Assembly: GCF_004799665.1 (NCBI RefSeq)
Contig: NZ_CP031310.1
Coordinates: forward strand, 1,480,887 to 1,544,886
From: Halapricum salinum
Lineage (GTDB): Archaea; Halobacteriota; Halobacteria; Halobacteriales; Haloarculaceae
Reading direction: 5' to 3'
Length of the DNA stretch: 64,000 nt
The position numbers and the translations under genes were made by a program. Of this stretch, positions 6,652-31,893 are shown in pieces. Within the stretch, counting starts at the first letter, position 1. The number at the start of each line of letters is the position of its first letter. Below the pieces are notes generated by a model. It searched no databases, was not told where the DNA came from, and saw only the letters and a list, made by a program, of their open reading frames with translations.

Positions 6652-8004
6652 GTGACGCACGTCGACGACGATCCGCGAGCAGCACTGGACGCGATCACCG
6701 AGTATCCGGTCTTCCTCGCGCACAACGCGAACGTCGACGCGCTCTGCCACGTCGACGAGAGCGTCGAGTCGGTTCTGAATCCGCCGGGCGAGGCCTGGCC
6801 CGAGAGTATCGATTCGCCCGAGGCACTGGCGACGGCCATCACCCAGACGATGGCCCGTGGCGACGGCGACCTGCTCGCGACAACCGCAGAGTTCGACGCC
6901 TGGCTGGCCGAGCGACTCGCCCCCGACGAACAGCGACTGGGCGGGCAGGCCGCGATCATGGCCGACCTCGTCTCGTTACTCGACGGCGACCCGATTCTGT
7001 GGACCTATCTGCTCTCGGACACCCAGCGCGCGCAGTTCACCCACCCCGAGTCGATCCGATTTCCGGTCGTCGACGGCGACTCACTGTCGTTCGTCCCGCT
7101 CTCGGAGGCCCCGACGACCGACCAGACGAAACGCAACTGGATCTTTGAGTTCTCGGCGGGCGATCGGCTGTTCGAGACGACCGCGACCGCCGACACGCGA
7201 TTCATCGCCGCGACGCGGCCGGATCGATTCAACCTCGAAACCGGGCTCGACCCCGTCGTCGAGCAACTGGGCGCGAACGTCGAGTGCGCGCTGGTCTCGG
7301 GCTACCAGAGCCTCAAACGCGTCTACGACGACGGCTCGACGTTCGACGAGCACGTCGAGCGCGGGGCCGAATTTCTGCGCGATCTCGCCGCCGAGGGTGT
7401 GACGATTCAACTTGAGTATGGGGTCACGCACAAGCGCGACCTCCGTCGGGCGCTGATCGAGCACGTCCTGCCCGAGATCGACGCCGTCGGGATGGACTCG
7501 CGGGAACTCGAACTGCTCTGTGAGGATCTTCAGTATGCGGGTGGTGGCCCGGGACCCGATATCGTCTCCCAGTACCGCACACTCAAGGATCTCCTGGCTC
7601 GGCTGGGCGTCGACTGTATCAAAGTCCACACCACGGACTACTTCCTCGCAGTGATGGACGCCGACGCCTATCTCGATCCCGAGTACGTCGCCGAGGGCTG
7701 GGCCATGGCCGCCGTCGTCGCCGCGAGCAAGGCCACTGAGGGCGTCATCGACGAACCCAGCGACCTGGAATCCGGCCTCGACGTCGACTTCTCGCCCCCC
7801 GGTGTTGCGTCGCTCTCGCAACTGGGTTCGTATCTCGGGGTCGACGATCCCGGCCCCGATCTCGTGGCGACGCACGACGGCGTCGCGGTCGCCGCTCACG
7901 CCAACCGCGTCGTCGACGACCCCGTGAGTACGGTCGGGCTGGGCGACTCGATCGCCGTCTCGAACTTCCTCCTGGAGAACGCGCTCTCTGATTCTGACTT
8001 CTGA
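6652..8004 (+). CDS. ADP-dependent glucokinase/phosphofructokinase family protein
   Basis: A protein of about 450 residues from the GTG at 6652 (VTHVDDDPRAALDAI). It has the ribokinase-fold motifs of the ADP-dependent family: HNANVDAL near the N-terminus for sugar binding and VGLGDS near the C-terminus, with the GxGD catalytic aspartate. It would phosphorylate glucose or fructose 6-phosphate with ADP as donor, the first steps of the modified Embden-Meyerhof pathway of euryarchaea. Substrate choice cannot be read from sequence. The frame is open further upstream, but that overlaps the divergent neighbour and lacks family-like sequence. Confidence 0.85.
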   Translation: MTHVDDDPRAALDAITEYPVFLAHNANVDALCHVDESVESVLNPPGEAWPESIDSPEALATAITQTMARGDGDLLATTAEFDAWLAERLAPDEQRLGGQAAIMADLVSLLDGDPILWTYLLSDTQRAQFTHPESIRFPVVDGDSLSFVPLSEAPTTDQTKRNWIFEFSAGDRLFETTATADTRFIAATRPDRFNLETGLDPVVEQLGANVECALVSGYQSLKRVYDDGSTFDEHVERGAEFLRDLAAEGVTIQLEYGVTHKRDLRRALIEHVLPEIDAVGMDSRELELLCEDLQYAGGGPGPDIVSQYRTLKDLLARLGVDCIKVHTTDYFLAVMDADAYLDPEYVAEGWAMAAVVAASKATEGVIDEPSDLESGLDVDFSPPGVASLSQLGSYLGVDDPGPDLVATHDGVAVAAHANRVVDDPVSTVGLGDSIAVSNFLLENALSDSDF

Positions 8005-8048
8005 GTTTCTGCTGTGACTGTCCTCTACGGATGTGATGGAATACTGTC

Positions 8049-8596
8049 ATTCTGGGGTGGCGCGCGCTGGCGAGACGGTATGTCGAGCCGACACTGTGCG
8101 AGGGACGACCGAGCGAGTGTAGCGAGCGACGGAGTCGGTTGGGGAGGGTGTGGCTGGCTGTGGGTGGGTGGGGCTGAAAGGGGCGACCGGGTCGGAGAGC
8201 GAGACGACGTAAGCACTGGACTGAGCAGAGCGAAGGAAGCGCGCAGCGAGAGCGAGACGTGACCATCGGGAGCGTCTCGAAAACGCGAACGGGGAACGAA
8301 GTGACCCGTGAGCGAGCAACAGCCTGCGAGCCTGTCGGGGCTTTCTGGCCGTTCCGAGCTGTGCGTGAACAGACGAGCAGACCCAGAAAGCCCCCGGTCG
8401 CTACGGTCCCGCGGCTCGCTGCGCTCCAGTAGGTGCTTGCGTCGCCGAGGTTCCCGTAGCGACCGACCCCTTTCAGTCCCACCCACAGGTATCCACGCCC
8501 TCCCCAGCCGATTCGCTCAGTCGTTTCACTCCTTCACTCATCCCTCGCACGGCAATTGCTCACCACGAGGGTTCGCCAGCGCGCGCCAGAATAGTC
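8049..8596. repeat. Large non-coding inverted-repeat block, dispersed element copy 1
   Basis: The whole 600-base gap between convergent genes (8005-8604) lacks a credible gene. Bases about 8049-8191 and 8461-8596 are imperfect reverse complements. Shared boxes are GCGCGCGCTGGCGA, GTGCGAGGGA, GGGGAGGG(T/C)GTGG, and GTGGGTGGG followed by CTGAAAGGGG. The centre holds an inner pair, GGGGCTTTCTGG (about 8337) and CCAGAAAGCCCC (about 8382), and the small hairpin ACGGG/CCCGT with loop GAACGAAGTGA (8289-8309). The same boxes recur at 31.4-31.8 kb. There is no transposase gene. Confidence 0.8.
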
Positions 8597-8604
8597 ACTT
8601 CAGA

Positions 8605-9660
8605 TCAAAGCAATCCATATGCGTCCTGCAGATCCCGGTAGAGTTGGAGGTATTGCTCCAGCACCGGGCGATGATCGAAGTCGGCCCACTCCTCGTCGAC
8701 GGTCAGGTGCTCGAAGTTTCCGGCCTCCTCGATCGCGTCGGCGATCTGCTGGGGCGTCGTCACCCGAAAACTGCGATCGTAGTTCTCGATGAGCTCGTGC
8801 GCACTCGACTCGGCCTGGTACTCGACGATCCCGACACAGCCACAGGAAAGCGCCCACAGCAGTTCGCTCGCGAAGTACTCCTCGTAGGCGGTCTGGACGA
8901 ACGCGTGGGCACCCTTGTAGATCGACAGCCGCTCCTCGCGAGAACACTCACCCACGAACTCGACGCGGTCGTCGATCCGCAACTCTTCGACCTCGTTCTC
9001 GTAGTCCTCGCGAGCGGGGCCGTCGCCGATGATTCGGGCCGACCAGTCACGATCCCGTAACTCGGCCAGGCCGAGCAGGAAACTCTTGAGGTTGGCCGTC
9101 TCGTCCAGCGGGTGGGCGAAGGCGACGTCGACGTTGTCGGCGGCCTCGACCTCCCGGACGAAGTCCATGTCGATACTCTCGGGGACGAGCTGGAGGCGCT
9201 CGGCCGGGACGCCGCGCTCGCGCAACTCGGTCCGAACCATCTCCGAGGGGGCGACGATCCGGGCGGGTTTGGCGAGCGCGCGGCCGGCCCAGCGTCCACT
9301 CGGGACGGCGTCGCCGAAGTACTCCAGCACGAGCGGTGCGCGGGCGAGCGAGCCTCCTATACTGGCGGCGGCGACCTGCGAGGCGGGCGTCGGGGCGGCG
9401 TGGACGATGTCGGGGTCGAAGCGCCACAGGGCCCACGGGAGCCGCAGCGCGAACGACGTCGGGGCGGGACCGCCCGTCACGCCGTGGTAGATCAGCTCCG
9501 AATCGGTCACGGTTTCGCGGCCGTGCTCCCAGGACTGGGCGCAGAAGATCGTGACCTCGTGGCCGCGTTCGGCCAGCAGACGAGCGATCCGCTCGATCCG
9601 CTGGACGCCCTCGCTGTCGTCGTGGTGGGTCGTCTCCATGGAGACGAACGCGACCCGCAT
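8605..9660 (-). CDS. Glycosyltransferase family 4 type protein
   Basis: A 351-residue GT-B-fold protein. The N-terminal half starts MRVAFVSMETTHHDDSEGVQRIERIARLL, with the acceptor-side Rossmann fold, and later has DPDIVHAAP. The C-terminal half has RIIGDGPAREDYENEVEEL, VEFVGECSREE and the E-x7-E-like donor-binding region FASELLWALSCGCVGIVEY. It transfers a sugar from a nucleotide-activated donor, probably to a lipid or surface glycan; substrates are unknown. The ATG at 9660 fits the fold start. It probably stands alone, with the histidine kinase gene about 100 bases upstream. Confidence 0.85.
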   Translation of the reverse strand: MRVAFVSMETTHHDDSEGVQRIERIARLLAERGHEVTIFCAQSWEHGRETVTDSELIYHGVTGGPAPTSFALRLPWALWRFDPDIVHAAPTPASQVAAASIGGSLARAPLVLEYFGDAVPSGRWAGRALAKPARIVAPSEMVRTELRERGVPAERLQLVPESIDMDFVREVEAADNVDVAFAHPLDETANLKSFLLGLAELRDRDWSARIIGDGPAREDYENEVEELRIDDRVEFVGECSREERLSIYKGAHAFVQTAYEEYFASELLWALSCGCVGIVEYQAESSAHELIENYDRSFRVTTPQQIADAIEEAGNFEHLTVDEEWADFDHRPVLEQYLQLYRDLQDAYGLL

Positions 9661-9762: not shown

Positions 9763-11415
9763 TCAGCGCGGGTCGACGCCCCGTATTTCGAAGCGCGCCC
9801 CGCCGTCACGCCCCTCGGTGGCCGTGATCGACCAGCCGTGGGCGGCGACGATCTCCCCGACGATCGCCAGTCCGAAGCCGGTGCCGTGTGTCGCAGTCGA
9901 GTACCCGCTCTCGAAGATAGCCTCGCGGTCGTCCGGAGGGATTCCAACGCCGTCGTCCTCGACGTAGAACCCATCTTCGAGTGGGCCGACGCGGACCGTC
10001 AGCTGTTCGCCGTCGGATCGGCCGTGCTCCAGGGCGTTTAGGTAGAGATTTTCGAGCAACTGCTGGAGGCGGTCGGCGTCGGCGGCGAAGGTAGTGTCGC
10101 CGTCGATTTCGAGGGTCGCGTCGGGGACGTCGACCATCTCCCAGGCGGACTCGGCCAGCGCCGACAGACTCACTGTCGTCGCTTCGTCGATGGGTTGGCC
10201 CTGTCTGGCGAGCGCGAGGACGTCGTCGATGAGCGTCTCCATCCGAAGCAGGGCGTCCGCGACCGTGTCGAGGTTCTCGTCGTCACGGTCGTTGCGAGCG
10301 AGTTCGAGCCGGGCCATCGCCACGTTCAGTGGGTTGCGGAGGTCGTGGCTGACCATGCTGGCGAACGACTCCAGGCGCTCGTTCTGGCGTTCGAGTTCCT
10401 GGCGATACTGTTCGCGCTCGGTGACGTCACTGAGAACGATCAGCCGGCCGAGCTGGGGCTGGTCGGCGGCGAAGGGCGTCTCCGAGATCCGGTAGTAGCG
10501 GACGCTGTCGCCGTGTTCGAGGGTGAGTACGGGCTCGTCGCTGTCGGCGGCTTCGGCGACGTTCGGAAGCGTTGACCACAGCGGGTCGCCGAGACCGTCA
10601 CCGTCGCGAAGTTGCGGGAACAGCGTCTCGGTGCTGTCGTTGTACTCGCGGATACGGTCCTCGTCGTCGACGAGGATCGTCGGCTCGTCGTGGCCGCCGG
10701 TCACCTGGACCGCCTGGAACTGGTAGACGTAGACCGACAGGACGCCGACGGCGAAGACCGCGACCCCGAGCGGTTCGTAGGTGATGTCGATGAGGTAGGG
10801 CGTCGCGAACCCGACGACGTCCAACACGATCGGCAGTGCGGTCACGCCCAGCAGCGCCAGCAGCGGTCGCGTATCGTAGCTGACCTGGCGAAACCGTTCG
10901 AGTAGCATGAAGTAGCCGACGATCGAGAGCCCGTAGGCCAGTCCCATCGCCAGCCAGTGGGCCAACTGGTGGCGGATCGCCAGATGTGCAAAGGGGACCG
11001 TCGCGTAGCTCGCCTCGTAGTAGAGGCCGTGGACCGGGTTCGTGAGCTTCACGGCGACGATCAGCAAGAAGACGCCCAGCAGGACCTGCCGATAGGTTCG
11101 ATCGCGATGCAGCGTTCGGCCGGTGTAGGCCGAACAGAAGTACAGCCACGGCCCGACGGCCGCGATGCCGACGATCAGTCCCACAGTATAGAATCCCAGC
11201 GCGAGTTCGACCGTCGGCGCGAGCAGGAAGCCGACGTGCGCGCTCGCCCAGCCGCCGGTCAGCAGTAACAGTGCAAACAACCCGCGTCGCGTGTCCGGGT
11301 CTTCGATCCGGCCGACGTAACTCACACTGACGAAACAGGCGACGGCCGCGAGCGCGAAGGCTGCCACGTAAGCGACGAACACTGGCGACACTGATGCGGG
11401 CAACGAAACTGCCAC
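9763..11415 (-). CDS. Membrane-bound sensor histidine kinase with seven-helix input domain
   Basis: A protein of about 550 residues from the GTG at 11415. The first roughly 220 residues are seven hydrophobic segments (histidine-kinase N-terminal 7TM type). A PAS-like domain follows (DEPTILVDDEDRIREYNDSTE), then the HisKA helix with MVSHDLRNPLNVAMARLELA, where His is the phosphorylation site. The HATPase domain has NLYLNALEHG (N box), DDGVGIPPDD and GTGFGLAIV. It senses an unknown membrane signal. No response regulator is adjacent, which is common in haloarchaea. The upstream ATG frames extend into the divergent peptidase promoter. Confidence 0.85.
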   Translation of the reverse strand: MAVSLPASVSPVFVAYVAAFALAAVACFVSVSYVGRIEDPDTRRGLFALLLLTGGWASAHVGFLLAPTVELALGFYTVGLIVGIAAVGPWLYFCSAYTGRTLHRDRTYRQVLLGVFLLIVAVKLTNPVHGLYYEASYATVPFAHLAIRHQLAHWLAMGLAYGLSIVGYFMLLERFRQVSYDTRPLLALLGVTALPIVLDVVGFATPYLIDITYEPLGVAVFAVGVLSVYVYQFQAVQVTGGHDEPTILVDDEDRIREYNDSTETLFPQLRDGDGLGDPLWSTLPNVAEAADSDEPVLTLEHGDSVRYYRISETPFAADQPQLGRLIVLSDVTEREQYRQELERQNERLESFASMVSHDLRNPLNVAMARLELARNDRDDENLDTVADALLRMETLIDDVLALARQGQPIDEATTVSLSALAESAWEMVDVPDATLEIDGDTTFAADADRLQQLLENLYLNALEHGRSDGEQLTVRVGPLEDGFYVEDDGVGIPPDDREAIFESGYSTATHGTGFGLAIVGEIVAAHGWSITATEGRDGGARFEIRGVDPR

Positions 11416-31314: not shown

Positions 31315-31423
31315 AACTCGATTTTTCTATTTCGTCTTCTGCCGGGCGTTCTGGAGCGACTTCTGGGGTGGTTGTGGATGTTTCGAGTGGTGGAATAGCT
31401 GGCGGTGACAGCACTCCGAACAG

Positions 31424-31820
31424 CCAGAAAGCCCCGACTGGCTCGACTTCCGGGCCTCGCTGCGCTCCTCGTCGTTCCACTCCTGCGGTGTCGCGCGGGC
31501 GACCCGTGAGTCGCCCGCACGGCCAGAGGGACCTTCGGTCCCTCCCTGCTTGCCTCGTCCGGGTTCGTCGAGCCAGTCGCCCCTTTCGTCCCCACCCGTT
31601 TGGACTGGCCAACCGAGCCACGCGAGTGGGACTGAAAGGGGCTTTCTGGTTCTCGGAGTCGATCACTGCGGCAGTGCGTCTGACTCACTGAATCTCGCGT
31701 CAGTCGAAGCCACACCCTCCCCAGCCGATTGCGCTTCTCGCTCACTCCGTTCGCTGTGATGCTCATCCCTCGCGTGTGTTCGTCGCGTGACGGAGCACGC
31801 GACTGCACGCGCCACCGAGG
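31424..31820. repeat. Non-coding dispersed element copy 2
   Basis: The gap 31315-31893 has no credible gene. It contains the boxes of copy 1: CCAGAAAGCCCC (31424-31435), GTGGGACTGAAAGGGGC with GGCTTTCTGG (31626-31649), CACACCCTCCCCAGCCGATT (31711-31730), CTCATCCCTCGCG (31762-31774) and ACGCGCCACCGAGG (about 31807-31820). It also has two strong hairpins, GCGGGCGAC/GTCGCCCGC (about 31496-31519) and GAGGGACC/GGTCCCTC (about 31528-31546). The copy lies upstream of nreA, so the element can sit in promoter-side as well as 3' gaps. A T-rich tract just after the TFB stop may end that mRNA. Confidence 0.75.
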
Positions 31821-31893
31821 TACACGTTCTGACGCCGCACTACGAATCAAGAACGGGTTAGATTCATCACCGTCAGACCCAAACACTCACTGA

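Follow-up and report, generated by a model that had tools for sequence, protein, structure and literature searches.

Analysis of a 64,000-nucleotide stretch of Halapricum salinum DNA (the window) revealed that an intergenic block is built from two modules, ARM and D2, which form a dispersed family spread between genes across many Halobacteria genomes. The best reading of ARM and D2 is a family of strand-specifically folded, RNA-like elements that are partly retained in place. We assign a probability of roughly one half to the full form of this reading, in which the block combines two non-coding modules, each folding on one strand only, the fold would act within RNA and copies would spread in trans.

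Architecture of the block and of the second gap

Gene calls made with our own codon-usage script, independently of the annotation, showed that the gap 8005-8604 lies between a forward-strand gene ending at 8004 and a reverse-strand gene ending at 8605. Because the flanking genes end at these positions, the gap is non-coding, which bears out the sequence-only reading of 8049-8596. A 548-nt query gave 67 matches in its own genome (G000, a single contig of 3.45 Mb), the best non-self match having an E-value of 4e-63, and the 529-nt strand of the block folded with a z-score of -12 against shuffled sequences. The similarity is thus not due to chance, and the possibility that just two copies exist, raised earlier as the case against a family, does not hold. 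A repeat search found inverted arms at 8058-8168 and 8478-8588 (111 nt, 72% complementary, 309 nt apart). Arms of about 140 bases had been proposed; their inversion is confirmed and their length corrected to about 95-111 nt.

Home-made covariance models R1 and R2, whose E-values are rough, gave the order ARM(+) D2(+) D2(-) ARM(-) for 8059-8587 and a content of D2(-), a D2 remnant and ARM(-) for the gap near 31 kb (Table 1). The boxes said to recur in 31315-31893 are present at both sites, the second at 31.3-31.9 kb. The copy proposed at 31.4-31.8 kb is related to the block but is not a full copy, as it holds one D2(-), the remnant and one ARM. R1 also scored 27.9 bits at 10252-10348, within a gene, and this was taken as a chance match. 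A check for target-site duplication found no direct repeats at least 14 nt long between 7900 and 8700.

The basic unit is an ARM of about 107 nt, often solo, plus a separate D2 of about 100 nt, rather than the 548-bp inverted block. The inverted look of the block comes from convergent ARM pairs, and solo ARMs lack an inverted partner. The sequence-only reading had suggested large non-autonomous elements or structured non-coding RNAs. A family with strand-specific covarying structure was indeed found across the genome and the class, but the 548-bp block is not its basic unit.

Small near-perfect hairpins of the GGGCGACCCGTGAGTCGCCC and GAGGGACCTTCGGTCCCTC types, resembling nested mini-repeats, lie at the tips of several units (window 31490-31545; also L030, L034, L036 and L038). 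A tandem array with a 63-bp period at G000:C1:1131321-1131586 (L050) matches the inner, purine-rich portion of the element.

Table 1. ARM and D2 features in the window (window coordinates).
Feature	Start	End	Strand	Evidence and remarks
ARM unit, left copy	8059	8153	+	R1, 83.3 bits, E 1.1e-18; P1 encloses P2, then P3, then G-rich box B2
P1 (CGCGC / GTGCG) around hairpin P2	8061	8100	+	Alignment A1
P2 in left ARM				Tandem G.A step within stem (GGC-GA-GAC / GTC-GA-GCC); alignment A1
P3 hairpin	8104	8136	+	Base GAC-GA ... GA-GTC; 2-bp steps alternating with tandem G.A steps
Box B2 GGTTGGGGAGGGTGTGG	8137	8153	+	Conserved; unpaired in model
D2 module, left copy (GGGTGGGGCTGAAAGGGGC ... stem ... GGGGCTTTCTGG)	8165	8348	+	Interior enlarged; R2 match 8165-8276, 41.9 bits; far box 8337-8348 read from sequence
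Central hairpin GGGGCTTTCTGG / CCAGAAAGCCCC	8337	8394		Formed by inner ends of both D2 modules
D2 module, right copy	8386	8485	-	R2, 112 bits, E 2.4e-24
ARM unit, right copy	8493	8587	-	R1, 86.2 bits, E 2e-19; convergent to left ARM
D2 module, 31-kb gap	31427	31598	-	R2, 65.6 bits
D2 remnant (GGGACTGAAAGGGGCTTTCTGG, stem lost), 31-kb gap	31623	31646	+	R2, 22.9 bits
ARM unit, single, 31-kb gap	31710	31813	-	R1, 72.5 bits, E 4.7e-16

Covariation and strand specificity of the folds

The ARM was defined from fourteen large copies and from 120 box-B2 loci, most of the latter in named haloarchaeal genomes. Eleven records from bacteria, in which the box matched alone, were left out (L110, L111, L123, L125, L142, L144, L147, L152, L162, L173 and L178). 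A single arm proved to be an independent unit, mostly solo in Natrinema and relatives. This unit of about 107 nt has three helices and reads GGCGCGYGC, hairpin P2, a spacer, RYGCG, AGGGAYGA, hairpin P3, GARTC and box GGYTGGGGAGGGYGTGG, where RYGCG pairs back onto the first word to form P1. Box patterns found 132 ARMs, of which 123 were parsed, and alignment A1 comprises 46 of these, selected by length. The T and B1 search patterns overlap with P1 and with the P3 base on its 5' side; constancy in these regions therefore partly reflects how the ARMs were picked. P2, the bulk of P3 and the P3 3' side lie outside the patterns.

Among the 46 ARMs, from the own and other genomes, 93.8% of pair cells were paired against 73.7% in shuffled alignments, and slid control versions of the fold reached 17-43%. 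Double-sided changes occurred in 226 cells (63.6 expected) and at 22 of 28 pairs. On the T-to-B2 strand G-U outnumbers A-C 104 to 8, and hence one ARM strand is folded; a double-stranded palindrome cannot explain this excess, since a G-T pair on one strand reads as A-C on the opposite one. In P3, 2-bp helices alternate with tandem G.A steps that are kept in 34-46 of the 46 ARMs (G.A at columns 63/89 in 46/46, at 64/88 in 43, and at 67/85 and 68/84 in 38). Non-seed ARMs, of which 63 of 89 loci were parsed, gave the same picture, with 93.6% paired against 80.5% shuffled, and 136 G-U against 16 A-C.

Template-switch correction of palindromes is a generally known process that keeps hairpins perfect without selection, and it would maintain pairing while the letters vary freely. 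As a neutral account of the ARM it is very unlikely, for it predicts no G-U excess over A-C (104:8 and 136:16 were found) and leaves the conserved tandem G.A mismatches and unpaired boxes unexplained.

Some ARMs carry an extra conserved domain within P3, GCGCGGGACC-NNN-GGTCCCGCG followed by CGAACGGG...CCCGTGAG (L086, L139, G059:C1:2274827 and G211:C1:290381). Another insert splits box B1 (GCGAGG|TCTTCG...GGAAGACGC...GCGTCTTCC|GGATGAGCG) in the minus-strand ARM of L133 and at G059:C1:2297939 and G059:C1:3376086.

In the D2 module, GGGTGGGACTGAAAGGGGC is followed by a stem of 11 bp whose interior is structured, and then by GGGGCTTTC. Alignment A2 includes 30 of the 37 D2 units of suitable length (54 found), seven with a different interior being left out. 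Covariation in D2 is as strong as in the ARM: pairing was 93.0% against 66.2% shuffled and 34-44% in slid controls, and 19 of 22 pairs showed double-sided changes. Stem pairing was 94.4% within one copy and 48% between copies. The outer ten pairs gave a G-U to A-C ratio of 18:9, a weaker contrast than in the ARM.

Distribution, placement and retention

The own genome has 33 ARM matches (R1, E<=0.1). Three genomes from one genus of family f7 have 24, 42 and 46 (E<=0.01), and three further f7 genomes have 36, 74 and 87 (E<=1e-6), 87 being the highest count. With strict filters, and scoring no more than 16 (ARM) or 15 (D2) candidates per genome, the ARM was found in at least 149 of 242 sampled genomes of the class (48 of 74 genera) and D2 in at least 205 (64 of 74 genera). 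Under the same filters the ARM is absent from 93 of the 242 genomes, which counts against our best explanation. Pieces of the block are carried by haloarchaeal plasmids (23 records matched), and a search of phage records with the block gave no match. Carriage by viruses was also considered; six IMG/VR contigs with box B2 scored merely 19-26 bits by R1 and were read as chance matches.

Placement was analysed in a three-genome set of 112 ARM matches, 89 of which were used as loci for placement and retention and 100 for pair orientation and doublet scores. Its 71 solo ARMs occupy 27 convergent, 14 tandem sense, 17 tandem antisense and 13 divergent gaps, compared with 5 convergent, 24 tandem and 22 divergent among 51 background gaps. 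These counts indicate that ARMs avoid promoter gaps and are otherwise free in orientation to genes. No promoter of their own was detected: A+T upstream of the ARM is flat and TATA-like words show no peak. Proteins beside 132 ARMs formed no cluster larger than two and gave no recurring partner gene, and regional strand runs were within chance for replication direction (p 0.49-0.87).

Transcription terminators, bidirectional or 3'-end, or mRNA 3'-end stabilisers sitting after genes would account for the enrichment in convergent gaps (27/71 solos, compared with 5/51 background gaps), for the same-strand upstream gene of 74 of 100 ARMs in other genomes, many of which start 4-100 nt past the stop, and for T at 32% directly after the tail hairpin in Natrinema-type genomes. 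Such a role is nevertheless unlikely. A weak sense bias in an earlier mixed set (33:24) was gone in the three genomes, where tandem gaps hold 14 sense and 17 antisense ARMs, which gives no support to a simple function as 3'-UTR or terminator, and 13 of the 71 solos lie in divergent gaps.

ARM pairs less than 800 bp apart in four genomes were convergent in 21 cases, and never divergent or tandem. Doublets outscore singles in two of the four genomes, G000 (p 0.01) and G211 (p 0.02), and do not do so in G040 or G059. Haladaptatus loci L069 and L134 show the opposite of the layout seen in the window genome: their two ARM-D2 units point outwards.

Across three related genomes, 22 element pairs had both flanks matching at 76-90% identity. 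Eleven matches were in opposite orientation and involve two-ARM loci; one of these looks solo, but its partner ARM is a match of just 37 bits. In the four groups examined, the intergenic DNA around retained ARMs aligns poorly, and P2 letter identity is 0.59 in retained pairs (n=8) against 0.62 in random between-genome pairs. Retained ARMs in orthologous gaps nonetheless have 91.1% of cells paired (19 usable). In 9 usable retained pairs, 26 cells had changed on both sides and 16 on one side and were still paired; 22 changed cells were broken, and maintenance is therefore imperfect. The own-genome element at 955226-955590 has no counterpart in the matching gap of G004, where the convergent stops are about 6 bp apart; no clear duplication is visible at this one element-free site. 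Hence presence differs between relatives and some units are kept with compensation. A link to synteny breakpoints was also considered. Of 11 elements and 12 control gaps, 7 and 6 were informative; a same-genus relative has the flanks side by side for 1-2 of the 7 elements, by our reading, and for 4 of the 6 control gaps, numbers too small to support such a link.

A purely selfish non-autonomous mobile element, whose fold would be recognised as ssDNA (or RNA) by a mobilising enzyme and have no host role, is a real possibility at less than even odds. Copy number varies within the own genus (33 ARMs against 0 in G002 and 1 in G005, with D2 in neither, under strict filters), the 955226-955590 element is missing from G004, orientation to genes in tandem gaps is random and inverted doublets occur. 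In genome G256 (C7), four D2 matches score 119.2 bits and a fifth 119.1; these are possibly recent near-identical copies and hint at recent copying. Neutral relics, however, would not stay 91% paired after the surrounding DNA has become unalignable, no neighbour protein family recurs beside the 132 ARMs, and the Y1 transposase (PF01797), present in 165 of 242 class genomes, was not found in G000 (33 ARM matches) or in G040 (24). ARM covariation is equally expected from ssDNA hairpins, which counts against the RNA reading, and an ssDNA-based mobile element stays a strong rival because promoter and gene-orientation signals are absent.

We nevertheless favour RNA as the acting strand on account of the G-U tolerance and the long retention. 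In the RNA reading, transcripts crossing these gaps would carry ARM and D2 units, and selection would see the folded RNA, with its P1/P2 hairpin, tandem-G.A hairpin P3, G-rich box and D2 stem. The fold would be used in situ, in the RNA itself, through protein binding or through protection or processing of the transcript. Copies would reach new gaps by trans-acting machinery, and some would then stay in place long-term with compensatory change.

Known repeat systems and biological meaning

Enterobacterial ERIC and pneumococcal BOX are multi-copy modular intergenic repeats with hairpins; their sequences and hosts differ from those of ARM/D2. With Rfam structured RNA classes the family shares covarying helices, conserved unpaired boxes and G-U tolerance, and differs from them in having tens of ARM copies per genome and no gene-context rule. 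Rfam gave no match to the elements at the gathering threshold in the window or at E<=1 in five loci. Solo ARMs lack the terminal inverted repeats that a MITE, as a DDE transposon derivative, carries on one element.

Bacterial REPINs/BIMEs with RAYT, compared by features in the accessible part of PMC3116915, are likewise dispersed extragenic units that occur as singles and inverted doublets, as in the close ARM pairs (21/21 convergent). A REPIN system would also have doublets better conserved than singles; here doublets score higher in two of the four genomes and not in the other two. Unlike REPINs (20-60 bp), the ARM is about 107 nt long with three covarying helices and free P2 letters, and the own genome and G040 bear ARMs without a Y1/RAYT gene. 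The accessible text of PMC3119063 describes PATEs, SMRs and MITEs of Haloquadratum as transposase-free mobile repeats, some with near-terminal palindromes, and relates PATEs to IS605-type elements. ARM/D2 resembles these as transposase-free repeats of a haloarchaeon; unlike PATEs, no IS605 link was found for it, and its strand-specific covariation is absent from the PATE description in that text.

Searches of the main texts of published papers for the box letters, haloarchaeal repeats, structured RNAs and REPINs did not find the family, and the accessible parts of PMC3404096, PMC12306157, PMC3733652, PMC4060949 and PMC2864571 contain nothing on ARM/D2. A halite-community sRNA study lists 22 conserved Halobacteria intergenic ncRNAs, with no function given in the part available (PMC7002113). 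ARM/D2 appears to be a structured repeat family that has so far gone undescribed.

A bolder and rather unlikely proposal casts ARM and D2 as domains of a SINE-like repeat borne by RNA in archaea: an enzyme supplied in trans would copy a structured RNA back into intergenic DNA, the repeat would spread through Halobacteria, and the surviving copies would provide RNA-protein docking sites. Haloarchaeal cells contain molar potassium, and in them box B2, with its four G-rich tracts, could be a G-quadruplex marking the RNA.

The family, present in at least 149 (ARM) and 205 (D2) of 242 haloarchaeal genomes, is strongly covarying and lies outside Rfam. Should it be transcribed, a genetically tractable group of archaea would have a new, large class of RNA; if it is mobile, it would represent a dispersal system without the enzyme expected from its nearest bacterial analogue.
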